Made by a program: the position numbers and the translations under genes | Assembly: GCF_036346615.1 (NCBI RefSeq) | Contig: NZ_CP107836.1 | Location: forward strand, 2,294,001 to 2,358,000 | DNA: 64,000 nt | Direction of reading: 5' to 3' | DNA from: Streptomyces sp. NBC_00523 | GTDB lineage: Bacteria; Actinomycetota; Actinomycetes; Streptomycetales; Streptomycetaceae | Part shown: positions 46,100-49,090 of the stretch, in pieces | How positions within the stretch are numbered: position 1 is the stretch's first letter | How the letters are laid out: each line of letters opens with the position of its first letter | Notes under the pieces: model-generated | Database searches by the model: none | Told to the model about the DNA's origin: nothing | The model's input: only the letters and a program-made list of their open reading frames with translations

Positions 46100-46216
46100 T
46101 GTCCGGCCGGCCTTCCCCTCGATCCGGCACCAATCCGGATGAATAGCTGCGCCTCGCACACATCATCGGTTATTGAGTGGGGCCAGGCTCTTTTCGCGAG
46201 GGAAGGCACGGGGGCG

Positions 46217-49090
46217 ATGGCACGCGAGGTCTGGCGGGACACGGCGGAGAACGAGGCGGCCTCCGCCGTCTTCCATTTCGTGCAGCAGCTCATCGACGGC
46301 TACCGCCACAACCGGCCCGTGATGCCGCTGGTGGTCCTCCAGGCCGCCGACGCCGACGTACCGCCCGAGGTGGACGCCCGGGTCGAGCAGATCGTGCGCC
46401 AGGTCCACCGGGCCAACCAGCCGCGCCGCGTCCCCCTGCGCCTGCTCGACGGGCACGGCGACTCCCCGTACGACGCGGCGCTCGACATGGTCCGCACGCT
46501 GACCGAGAAGCCGTGGGAGACCCGGGGCGGTTCGCAGTACAAGCCGTTCGCGTTCCCCCGTTCCCGGCTGCTCGGCGCCATCGAGCAGGCCACCGAGGCC
46601 GTGCTGCGGGACCCGGACCCGGGCTGCACCCGGGACCAGCGCGACGAGCGGATCCTGGAGGAGCTGAGCGCGCTGCGCTGGCGGGCCGGGCGGCGCGGCC
46701 GGGGCACCTGGTGGACCGCGCTGCGCGAGTCGGTGCGGCCGGAGACCTTCGTGGGGGCCGTGGTCATCGCGGTCCTGGGCGTGCTGCTCGGCGAGATCGG
46801 CTGGCTGCCGACCATGCTGGTGGCCGTGGGCGCGGTCCTCGGGCTCGCGGTGATCCGGCTGATGACGACGTCGGCGCCGCCGCTGCTGTGGCTGCGCCGG
46901 GCCAGCCGGTGGTTCGCCACCACCTCGTCGCTGGCCGCCGCCAGTACCGGCTATCCGTCGGACGGCTGGTCCCGTCTCTCGCCCAGCGGTTCGTGGCGGG
47001 TGATCCGGGCACGGGCGGCGGTGGTCGCGGGGCGGGTGGCCGACGCGGCGGCGGGCGACGAGCGGTCCCGCCAGTTCCACCTGGAGCTGAGGGTCCAGGC
47101 GCTGCTGGAGGACCTGCGCAACAACTACCGGCCGCACGCGCCGGACTGGCGGCGCGGCAAGCGGACCGTGCCGCCGGTGGTCTTCCTGCCGAGGGCCGTC
47201 CAGAGCAACGGCGGCGTGCAGCTGATCAACGCCCTCAACAACGTCCGCTCCCGGCGCAGCGAGGTCGATCCGCTGCTGCTCCTGGCCTCGCTGCCGGCGG
47301 CCGAGATCCTGCGGCACACCCCGCCGCTGCCGCCCGACCCGCCGCCCGTGCACACGGGTGCGGCGCGGGCCCGGTACGAGGACTGGGTCGGCCATCTCAG
47401 CGTGGGGCAGGCGCCCTCGGGCACGGCCACGCCCGCCTGGGTGCTGCGGCTGCCGCTGTCGACGGACCAGCTGACCCATGAGCACGCGCACGCGCAGCTC
47501 TCCACGCAGCGGGTGCGCAGGACGTGGGTGTGGTGGGTGATGTCGCGGACGACGCTCGCCGGTCTGATGGCCGGCGCGCTGCTGGGCACGATGCTGCTGA
47601 GCAACCACCTGGCGAACCGTTACTGCCACGGTCCGCTCACGGATGTCGACACGGACTCGGTTCGGCTGGCCCGGCCGGGCGGCGGCGACAAGGAGTGCAT
47701 CGGCGTGGCGACGTCCACCCGGGTGCGCTTCGCGGAGGGCAACGGCCTGGAGCTGGACGGGGCCGGGGCCGGGGTCGCCTTCGACCGGATCGAGCGGGCG
47801 GTGGCCGAGGAGAACGCCTCGATCGAGCCGGGCGACAAGTACGTCACGCTGATCTACGCGGGTCCGTTCACCGCCCCGACCGCGGAGCCCACCCGCAAGG
47901 CCCTGGAGGAGCTGACCGGCGTCTACCTCTACCAGCACCACACCAACACGCTGGGCTTCTCCGTGAAGCTTCGGGTGCTGACCGCCAACGGCGGGCAGGA
48001 CATGCTCCAGCAGATACCCGCGGTGCGGAAGATCATCGAGGTGGCCGAAAGAGATGCGTCGGTCGTCGGCGTGGTCGGGCTCGGCCGGGACACCACCGAC
48101 AGCCCGGAGGCCACCGCGCTCCTTCAGCAGGCGGGCCTGCCCGTGGTGGACACCACCAACTCCGGGGGTTATCTGGCGACGGACTACTCCAACTACTTCG
48201 GCCTGGCGGCCACCGACCAGGAGCAGGCGGACGCCCTCGGCCTCGTCGCGAAGCAGGTGGCGGCGGGGGCGCCGGGCACGCACAAGCCCCGGGCCCTGGT
48301 CCTGTCGCGCAAGCTCGTCAACAACGACAAGGACCGCTACACGGTGGAGCAGCGCAAGGTGGGCAGCGCGATGCTCGCCAAGTCGGGCTTCGCGCTGTCG
48401 GAGCCGGTGGAGTACGACCTCGGCCGCCGCAGCAGCGCCGATCTGGACCGCCCCGTGCAGCAGATCTGCGCGGCGGACCCGGCGCCGGACGCGCTGTACT
48501 TCGCGGGCCGGGTCGAGGACGTCTCCAACCTGATGAGCCGCCTCGCTCGCAGCTGTTCGCGCCGCCCCATCACCGTCTTCACGGGCGACGACCTGACCAA
48601 GACCCGGCTCGACGCGAGCACGGACACCACGAAGAACGTCACGCTCTACCACACGGCCCTCGCCCCGATGGGCCGCGGCCGCGCGGACGGCTTCTACGAG
48701 GAGTCGCACCGGGCCCTGGCCAAACTGCTGCCCGAGGGCGGGACGCTTCCCCGCCTCCCGGTGTCGAAACCGTACGAGGACCCGCTCTTCGCGAGCGGCC
48801 AGTCGGTGATGTCGTACAGCGCCACGGCCGCGCTGTACGACGCGGCGAGCCACGGCGACGCGGTGAACAGCGCGGCGGAGACCTGGGCGAACCTGTACGC
48901 GGTGAACCTGCGGACGATGCCCACGGGGACGATCACCTTCCGCGGCTTCATCCCGTACGAGGCGCAGGCGGGCCACGGTCTGGACGTCGTGCAGATCACC
49001 TACCCGGACGGCCGGAGCCACGCCCGGGTCATCTGCGGCCGGGCGGCGGGGAAGGTGGCGCTGGAGCCGCCGGAGTGCCCGCTGAAGTGA
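46217..49090 (+). CDS. Large membrane protein with extracytoplasmic periplasmic-binding-protein domain
   Basis: A 957-residue protein I cannot assign to a named family. Residues 1-175 are a soluble region without a Walker A motif. A hydrophobic pair spans about 178-215, and a second soluble region (about 216-436) contains QLINALNNVRSRRSEVDPLLLLAS. A third transmembrane helix is at about 437-462. The outer part (463-957) resembles the type I periplasmic-binding fold of LivJ-like proteins, e.g. KYVTLIYAGPF, VVGVVGLGRDTTDSPEATALL, GLPVVDTTNSGG and ALYFAGRVEDV. This suggests a receptor that binds a small molecule outside and signals inside. I start at ATG 46217 because GGAAGG lies upstream; an ATG at 46139 is possible. 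No ABC transporter genes are adjacent. Confidence 0.82.
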   Translation: MAREVWRDTAENEAASAVFHFVQQLIDGYRHNRPVMPLVVLQAADADVPPEVDARVEQIVRQVHRANQPRRVPLRLLDGHGDSPYDAALDMVRTLTEKPWETRGGSQYKPFAFPRSRLLGAIEQATEAVLRDPDPGCTRDQRDERILEELSALRWRAGRRGRGTWWTALRESVRPETFVGAVVIAVLGVLLGEIGWLPTMLVAVGAVLGLAVIRLMTTSAPPLLWLRRASRWFATTSSLAAASTGYPSDGWSRLSPSGSWRVIRARAAVVAGRVADAAAGDERSRQFHLELRVQALLEDLRNNYRPHAPDWRRGKRTVPPVVFLPRAVQSNGGVQLINALNNVRSRRSEVDPLLLLASLPAAEILRHTPPLPPDPPPVHTGAARARYEDWVGHLSVGQAPSGTATPAWVLRLPLSTDQLTHEHAHAQLSTQRVRRTWVWWVMSRTTLAGLMAGALLGTMLLSNHLANRYCHGPLTDVDTDSVRLARPGGGDKECIGVATSTRVRFAEGNGLELDGAGAGVAFDRIERAVAEENASIEPGDKYVTLIYAGPFTAPTAEPTRKALEELTGVYLYQHHTNTLGFSVKLRVLTANGGQDMLQQIPAVRKIIEVAERDASVVGVVGLGRDTTDSPEATALLQQAGLPVVDTTNSGGYLATDYSNYFGLAATDQEQADALGLVAKQVAAGAPGTHKPRALVLSRKLVNNDKDRYTVEQRKVGSAMLAKSGFALSEPVEYDLGRRSSADLDRPVQQICAADPAPDALYFAGRVEDVSNLMSRLARSCSRRPITVFTGDDLTKTRLDASTDTTKNVTLYHTALAPMGRGRADGFYEESHRALAKLLPEGGTLPRLPVSKPYEDPLFASGQSVMSYSATAALYDAASHGDAVNSAAETWANLYAVNLRTMPTGTITFRGFIPYEAQAGHGLDVVQITYPDGRSHARVICGRAAGKVALEPPECPLK

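Follow-up and report, generated by a model that had tools for sequence, protein, structure and literature searches.

A Streptomyces gene for a candidate transmembrane receptor that joins a LivJ-like outer domain to a degenerate NTPase domain

The candidate receptor gene and its parts

In this study, we have analyzed 64,000 nucleotides of Streptomyces sp. NBC_00523 (contig NZ_CP107836.1; G000:C1:2294001-2358000), referred to below as the window, and have concentrated on one gene at 46217-49090 on the forward strand, a single uninterrupted frame of 957 residues. We postulate, with a probability of approximately 0.62, that its product is a single-protein transmembrane, ligand-gated receptor that signals through a pseudo-NTPase. 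The features are listed here by window position.

46198-46206, + strand: ribosome-binding-site-like stretch GAGGGAAGG, 10 bases upstream of the ATG at 46217, proposed from the sequence
46217-49090, + strand: receptor gene, 957 amino acids, stop codon counted in the coordinates
46217-46732, + strand: residues 1-172, first half, putative degenerate P-loop NTPase domain, cytoplasmic, with an FPRSRL motif (hhalign via fused intermediates, with controls)
46322-46366, + strand: residues 36-50, predicted Walker A site without GxxxxGK[ST], MPLVVLQAADADVPP (two-step alignment chain; motif counts)
46733-46789, + strand: residues 173-191, predicted transmembrane helix 1 (hydropathy averaged over 29 proteins)
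46808-46864, + strand: residues 198-216, predicted transmembrane helix 2, forming a hairpin with helix 1 (averaged hydropathy)
46865-47536, + strand: residues 217-440, second half, putative NTPase-like domain, cytoplasmic (profile alignments; substitution rates of residues 217-436)
47171-47197, + strand: residues 319-327, Walker-B-like strand PPVVFLPRA, Asp replaced (Pro325), aligned with PVVLVDNV of a separate NTPase
47246-47272, + strand: residues 344-352, RSRRSEVDP motif ahead of a sensor-1-like strand, seven of nine positions invariant (R344, R346, R347, S348, E349, D351, and P352)
47537-47593, + strand: residues 441-459, predicted transmembrane helix 3 (averaged hydropathy)
47624-49087, + strand: residues 470-957, predicted type I periplasmic-binding (Venus flytrap) domain on the extracytoplasmic side, six cysteines conserved (PDB profile matches; cysteines; Foldseek of a low-confidence model)

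The gene is real and under purifying selection. A chance frame is excluded, since a search with the protein found a single copy in its own genome, since seven relatives with 80 to 98% identity, all labelled Streptomyces, are present in the genome collection, and since the inner and outer parts are both matched in at least 32 of 200 Streptomycetaceae genomes (own genome included; table read by hand; G122, G084, and G017 match in pieces). Matches at an E value of ≤0.001 were found in at least 68 of the 200. These distribution searches covered 200 to 394 genomes, with the best 2 to 5 candidates per genome scored, and the counts are lower bounds. The ratio of nonsynonymous to synonymous substitution rates (dN/dS), calculated against five close relatives, was 0.28 to 0.41 for the whole gene, 0.17 to 0.31 for residues 217-436, 0.25 to 0.43 for residues 463-957, and 0.29 to 0.47 for residues 1-175. 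An alternative start at 46139 would lengthen the frame; the start at 46217 is preferred because a ribosome-site-like stretch precedes it and because relatives L003 and L007 lack any start farther upstream than the equivalent of 46217.

Window-type proteins were compared in an alignment (A1) of 29 full-length sequences, from which second own-gene copies and near-duplicates were excluded, together with L008 and L026; in these two loci, the gene is broken over two frames, by either a frameshift or a sequencing error. The protein alone had a single Pfam match (DUF4131, at 0.14) and returned nothing useful from NCBIfam, PDB sequences, or phage records. Two catenin matches in the PDB sequence search (E values of 0.48 and 0.58) were taken as chance. 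Three records in the plasmid collection contained a match; the best is from Streptomyces fungicidicus and carries the annotation "ABC transporter substrate-binding protein."

Membrane layout and outer domain

When hydropathy was averaged over the 29 aligned proteins, peaks above 1.2 were observed only at residues 173-191, 198-216, and 441-459; when only the window sequence was used and the threshold was raised to 1.6, the hairpin passed and helix 3 did not. Conserved cysteine columns, defined as filled in at least 20 of the 29 proteins, are located at positions 470, 494, 751, 780, 940, and 954, every one of them past residue 469; position 954 is occupied in 27 of the 29 and the other five in all 29. 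The hydropathy peaks and the confinement of the cysteines to the outer part agree with an inner N terminus and an outer C terminus, and the data fit a layout in which the N terminus is inside, the hairpin returns inside, and the C-terminal domain is outside. This is the arrangement that had been proposed in an earlier note on this DNA (a soluble region, two close transmembrane helices, a second soluble region, a third helix, and an outer domain).

Profile comparison provides good support for the assignment of the outer domain as a type I periplasmic-binding domain of the LivJ and metabotropic glutamate receptor (mGluR) kind. An ectodomain profile, A7, built from 28 sequences (8 of the window type and 20 more distant), matched LivJ (PDB 4gnr) at 6.3e-14, with the match spanning positions 71-440 of the 466 in the profile, followed by binding proteins of the HAAT family (2.7e-12 and 8.9e-12), mGluR5 (1.7e-6), and GluA2 (2.2e-4). 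The LivJ match is the one that the earlier note had anticipated for the last part of the protein, and its proposal of a LivJ-like outer domain on a membrane anchor is therefore upheld. By Pfam, Peripla_BP_6 reached an E value of ≤0.01 in only 2 of the 29 window-type proteins (best, 3.4e-7), and the window protein by itself had no match to Peripla_BP_6 or ANF_receptor; the distant relatives L053 (ANF_receptor), L100, and L157 pass the curated Pfam cutoffs for ANF_receptor or Peripla_BP_6.

The AlphaFold2 model of the ectodomain is weak, with a mean predicted local distance difference test score (pLDDT) of 41.8 from 7 to 8 close sequences, and the Foldseek result obtained with it serves as support only. 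This search gave 208 PDB matches at an E value of ≤0.001, with LivJ-type proteins and mGluRs on top; judged by title, nearly all of the 50 matches listed were solute-binding proteins or mGluRs, the exceptions being the transcription factor SghR and one "bacteria protein," and for most matches the TM-scores were low, about 0.2 to 0.3 by query length.

A conserved Cys...E-C-x-G element precedes the periplasmic-binding domain. Within the domain, R624, N648, and S649 are invariant across the 29 window-type proteins, and residues 621-649, by the 4gnr alignment, span what we take to be the loops that touch the ligand in LivJ. Known LivJ/HAAT proteins (PDB 4gnr and 4nqr) and the ligand-binding regions of mGluRs and ionotropic glutamate receptors are thus alike to the window domain by profile homology, over about 370 positions in the case of 4gnr; however, the window domain differs from them in that it is attached at its N-terminal side to a cytoplasmic domain through a membrane helix, is preceded by the Cys...E-C-x-G element, and has no adjoining ATP-binding cassette (ABC) genes.

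Ancestry of the inner domain

The inner domain was traced through distant relatives of the receptor. Many of these are split: the ectodomain is a short protein (about 500 residues, one helix), and its gene directly follows that of a separate protein of about 660 to 740 residues, which mostly carries a Walker A motif. Others are fused, as in the window protein, and are more divergent. Three inner profiles were compared: C1, the window type (18 sequences, alignment A6); C2, the fused intermediates (16 sequences, with L050 excluded); and C3, the first 340 residues of 10 separate NTPases. By hhalign, C1 matched C2 with a P value of 3.1e-20 over 337 columns, and C2 matched C3 with a P value of 2.9e-20 over 277 columns, with the Walker A and Walker B regions in register. 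The direct comparison of C1 with C3 gave a P value of 1.8e-5 (2.6e-5 in an earlier run) and a probability of 78% over 63 columns in the Walker B/sensor-1 region. None of 100 column shuffles per pair equalled the real score (top shuffle, 20.6), and 29 other neighbor families compared with C1 and C2 reached a maximum of 23.0, compared with real scores of 156.6, 153.0, and 47.9. Since the shuffles and the 29 families score far lower, these comparisons link the inner domain to this particular NTPase family.

As judged from this profile chain, the two inner parts are one degenerate P-loop (AAA_16/STAND-like) NTPase domain, with the transmembrane hairpin separating the Walker A half from the Walker B half. 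The earlier description of two independent inner modules is therefore not sustained, and neither is the suggestion of an orphan fold for both. The same note had named strong similarity of the N-terminal regions to a known STAND ATPase or transporter module as evidence against its reading; such similarity is present in part, in the form of a degenerate domain recovered by the profile chain. Its statement that a P-loop motif is lacking holds, since GxxxxGK[ST] is present in 0 of the 29 window-type proteins (the window protein included), as it is in 0 of the 16 fused intermediates, compared with 32 of 45 separate NTPases. The Walker B hhhhD pattern is likewise absent from the window protein, which has VVFLPRA where a separate NTPase has VVLVDNV.

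The remaining 13 of the 45 separate NTPases (L044, L045, L115, L131, L135, L136, L143-L147, L154, and L160) show partial loss of Walker A (GSGGS, GSGAS, GMGKG, GMGRT, and similar), and loss of the motif is therefore not confined to the fusions. Of eight separate NTPases scanned against Pfam, three matched AAA_16 (best, 3.6e-6), one matched NACHT (0.0021), and three had no family; the AAA_16 and NACHT matches all fell under the curated cutoffs. In the PDB search, the separate NTPases matched generic P-loop proteins, with a best value of 7.2e-4. Compared with the NTPases encoded upstream of short receptors (L043, L046, L051-L054, L056, L110, and others), to whose N-terminal part its inner domain is homologous by profile, the window protein lacks Walker A and the Walker B Asp, carries a transmembrane hairpin, and is fused to its ectodomain; by length, rather than by alignment, it is too short to contain their C-terminal part of more than 300 residues.

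One ectodomain, different inner modules

The ectodomain is widespread in the genus. In a survey of 46 genomes, in which the best 35 of up to 89 candidates were scored and the counts are thus lower bounds, at least 39 genomes carry one or more such ectodomains, with at least 53 matches (52 loci plus the window) at E values of 2.9e-135 to 2.8e-54; the next match, at 5.7e-18, covers only part of the model, like ordinary binding proteins. By type, a separate NTPase gene precedes the ectodomain in 33 of the 53; fusion is to C2 in 9, to C1 in 5 (window included), and to a caspase in 1, which leaves 5 of other or unknown type (L117, located at a contig edge, and L156, L161, L163, and L164). A locus was called split when a same-strand separate-NTPase frame ended between 50 bases after and 900 bases before the ectodomain start, and fused with C2 when the hmmsearch score exceeded 25. 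Architecture labelling omitted ectodomain matches shorter than 330 residues; L095 gave no row, nor did L094, which had been fetched via a chance N-terminal match. A sample of the class comprised 60 genomes, and at least 8 of these, the host genome among them, gave matches at an E value of ≤1e-15.

Several relatives carry other inner modules. At L104:4687-6885 (-), a TIR_2 domain (2.2e-34) is joined by one transmembrane helix to the same ectodomain family, making this a candidate single-protein TIR receptor. L105:4502-6967 (+) and L109:3651-6278 (+) combine an N-terminal DUF4062 domain (1.1e-11 and 2e-12) with a transmembrane segment and this ectodomain, and L169:3187-5946 (-) carries a Ser/Thr protein kinase domain (8.5e-53) on it. 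At L151:3482-6202 (+), a caspase (9.4e-11) is fused to the same ectodomain, with an EACC1 gene (8.3e-22) upstream. The fused pseudo-NTPase receptor at L093:3095-8577 (+) adjoins genes for an EAD2+EAD1 protein and an EAD2+VMAP-C protein; the ectodomain family is therefore linked to components of described conflict systems. L041 has ANF_receptor only in Pfam, and its "HTH-like" label was given by eye.

A quick ectodomain tree was built from 103 of 127 rows (L026 and 24 near-copies were dropped), with Shimodaira-Hasegawa-like approximate likelihood ratio test (SH-aLRT) support and no bootstrap. The window type (19 rows) forms one clade with an SH-aLRT value of 100. The TIR and kinase proteins fall inside a group that is otherwise fused with C2 or unlabelled, and the caspase protein falls among the split rows; the tree requires 12 label changes, whereas shuffled labels require 52.3 on average. 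Its weak points are a support of 44 for the deepest split and three long end branches.

At slightly better than even odds, these proteins constitute an actinobacterial modular receptor superfamily built on one glutamate-receptor-like ectodomain, which would act in trans with a STAND-like NTPase and in cis with a pseudo-NTPase, TIR, DUF4062, caspase, or kinase module. In the window clade, the fused NTPase would then have lost catalysis, and the signal would pass via a dead NTPase whose own hairpin anchors it in the membrane.

Genomic context

Ten neighbors of the receptor gene were scanned with Pfam: upstream, an RNA methyltransferase, NMO, DnaJ, HrcA, a metallo-beta-lactamase-fold protein, and DUF3097; downstream, a radical SAM protein, a SpoIIE phosphatase with HATPase, an AMP-binding protein, and LepA. 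No ABC permease or ATPase was found among the ten, which confirms the earlier observation that ABC genes are lacking nearby. The row from the RNA methyltransferase through NMO, DnaJ, HrcA, the metallo-beta-lactamase fold, and DUF3097 to the receptor and the radical SAM gene is shared by 11 of 30 window-type loci (window, L002-L008, L174, L176, and L189). The remaining 19 loci lie elsewhere, with a second row in common to L057, L185, L187, and L190.

The survey of homologue neighborhoods that the earlier note had proposed, carried out on these 30 loci, revealed no recurring partner gene. Outside the shared row, the most widespread families are large ones: a SpoIIE-type phosphatase at 12 of the 30 loci (L175 and L180 being outside the row), cluster 14 at 8, and cluster 17, which is major facilitator superfamily-like, at 5, both clusters having been named by eye. 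None of these, nor the second-row genes, is plausible as a fixed partner.

Proposed mechanism and alternative explanations

We propose that the outer clam would close on a small ligand from outside the cell, which may resemble an amino acid or be another metabolite, that the movement would pass via helix 3 and the hairpin, and that the pseudo-NTPase would then alter its shape or pairing, switching a cytoplasmic partner on or off without hydrolyzing nucleotide. Since in relatives this outer domain is combined with a TIR, caspase, DUF4062, or kinase module or with a separate NTPase, signalling or cell-fate control is the probable output, not uptake. With a periplasmic-binding ectodomain on an anchor and no transporter genes nearby, the receptor reading of the earlier note is supported as probable.

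Several observations weigh against a pseudo-NTPase receptor. The direct alignment of C1 with C3 covers the Walker B half only, and the Walker A half depends on the two-step chain via the intermediates; in an ordinary hmmsearch, the C3 model recovers none of the C1 or C2 proteins, and neither C1 nor C2 matches the LepA-like P-loop family, one of the 29 control families. The AlphaFold2 models are poor (mean pLDDT of 34.8 for residues 1-462 and 41.8 for the ectodomain, from 7 to 8 close sequences), the former being unusable as fold evidence, and the inner fold was therefore assigned from sequence profiles. The dN/dS of the first inner half exceeds that of the outer domain in four of five comparisons. 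No neighbor family recurs across different places among the 30 loci, so context favors no particular output, and the adjacent genes offer no partner.

Of the alternatives, a conflict or immune receptor survives best, and we regard it as possible yet unlikely. Such a protein would sense an extracellular cue of attack (a toxin, a phage-induced lysis product, or a kin signal) and trigger a protective or suicidal response. The relatives fused to a caspase beside EACC1, to TIR, and to DUF4062 are consistent with this role, as are the EAD1/EAD2 and VMAP-C genes beside the L093 ectodomain and the caspase/transmembrane/periplasmic-binding arrangement described in PMC7159879. However, the window protein has neither an effector domain known to Pfam nor a recurring effector neighbor, PADLOC contains no family that matches it, and 11 of the 30 loci lie in the HrcA-DnaJ-DUF3097 row with no visible defense island.

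Far less probable is a membrane-tethered solute-binding protein, in which the outer domain would supply a distant ABC permease with a nutrient, and the inner part would serve only as an anchor or regulator. The LivJ/HAAT-type homology and the annotation of the S. fungicidicus plasmid record would suit such a function; however, no ABC gene is present among the ten window neighbors, no gene family accompanies the window type across its different locations, and the first hydrophobic segment does not occur before residue 173, so that there is no N-terminal signal peptide. Fusion of the same ectodomain family to TIR, DUF4062, caspase, and kinase also argues against it, as does the dN/dS of the second inner half (residues 217-436), which is below that of the outer domain in four of five comparisons, although the first half is higher in four of five. 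It is equally improbable that the inner domain still binds nucleotide via an unusual loop as an active switch, since, despite strong conservation of the second half with invariant R344, R346, R347, and D351, GxxxxGK[ST] is absent in 29 of 29 proteins and Pro325 occupies the place of the Walker B Asp.

Relation to known systems

The pseudo-NTPase receptor proposed here is reminiscent of two described systems. Kaur et al. 2020 (PMC7159879) describe an EACC1/caspase two-gene "System 4," defined by a 5' EACC1 gene and an N-terminal caspase or cyclase domain, with transmembrane helices and a downstream extracellular periplasmic-binding domain as an alternative C-terminal part. The window protein shares with System 4 the extracellular periplasmic-binding domain behind a transmembrane helix, and a single ectodomain profile matches both the window protein and L151; unlike that system, the window gene has no EACC1 and no caspase, and its interior is a predicted degenerate NTPase domain. 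No caspase or cyclase was matched by Pfam in the window protein, and the preceding gene is DUF3097, not EACC1. The L151 locus looks like an instance of the Kaur et al. conflict system with this ectodomain family. In the GlnH-GlnX-PknG system for amino acid sensing in actinobacteria, an outside solute-binding protein is proposed (PMC6069109) to signal via a membrane protein to a cytoplasmic effector. The likeness to the window receptor is one of working principle; GlnH-GlnX-PknG consists of three separate proteins and has a kinase output.

No account of NTPase-coupled or pseudo-NTPase receptors of this family was found in searches of open-license papers, and one may exist elsewhere. The earlier suggestion of an undescribed class is half right: within the scope of those searches, the family as such appears undescribed; however, fusions of transmembrane helices to periplasmic-binding domains in the caspase/EACC1 system have already been reported (PMC7159879), and the L151 locus carries the same ectodomain family. 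Proteins that are automatically labelled "ABC transporter substrate-binding protein" or "hypothetical protein" become a receptor family with testable parts. The varied modules on one ectodomain open Venus flytrap signalling onto NTPase, TIR, caspase, and kinase outputs to direct testing, and the fused clade offers a natural case of a signalling NTPase without catalytic motifs in which selection has been retained.

Searches of the host genome

The host genome was searched for a partner NTPase of the C3 family. The best 150 of 234 candidates gave short matches only, the best at 6.3e-5 over model positions 32-67 and the longest over positions 42-133 at 0.004; pairing in trans with an NTPase of the same family is therefore unlikely in this genome. 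A second, weak match to the ectodomain profile (4.7e-9) was found in the same genome at G000:C1:1773995-1774774, in a 451-amino-acid frame that probably encodes an ordinary binding protein for branched-chain amino acids.

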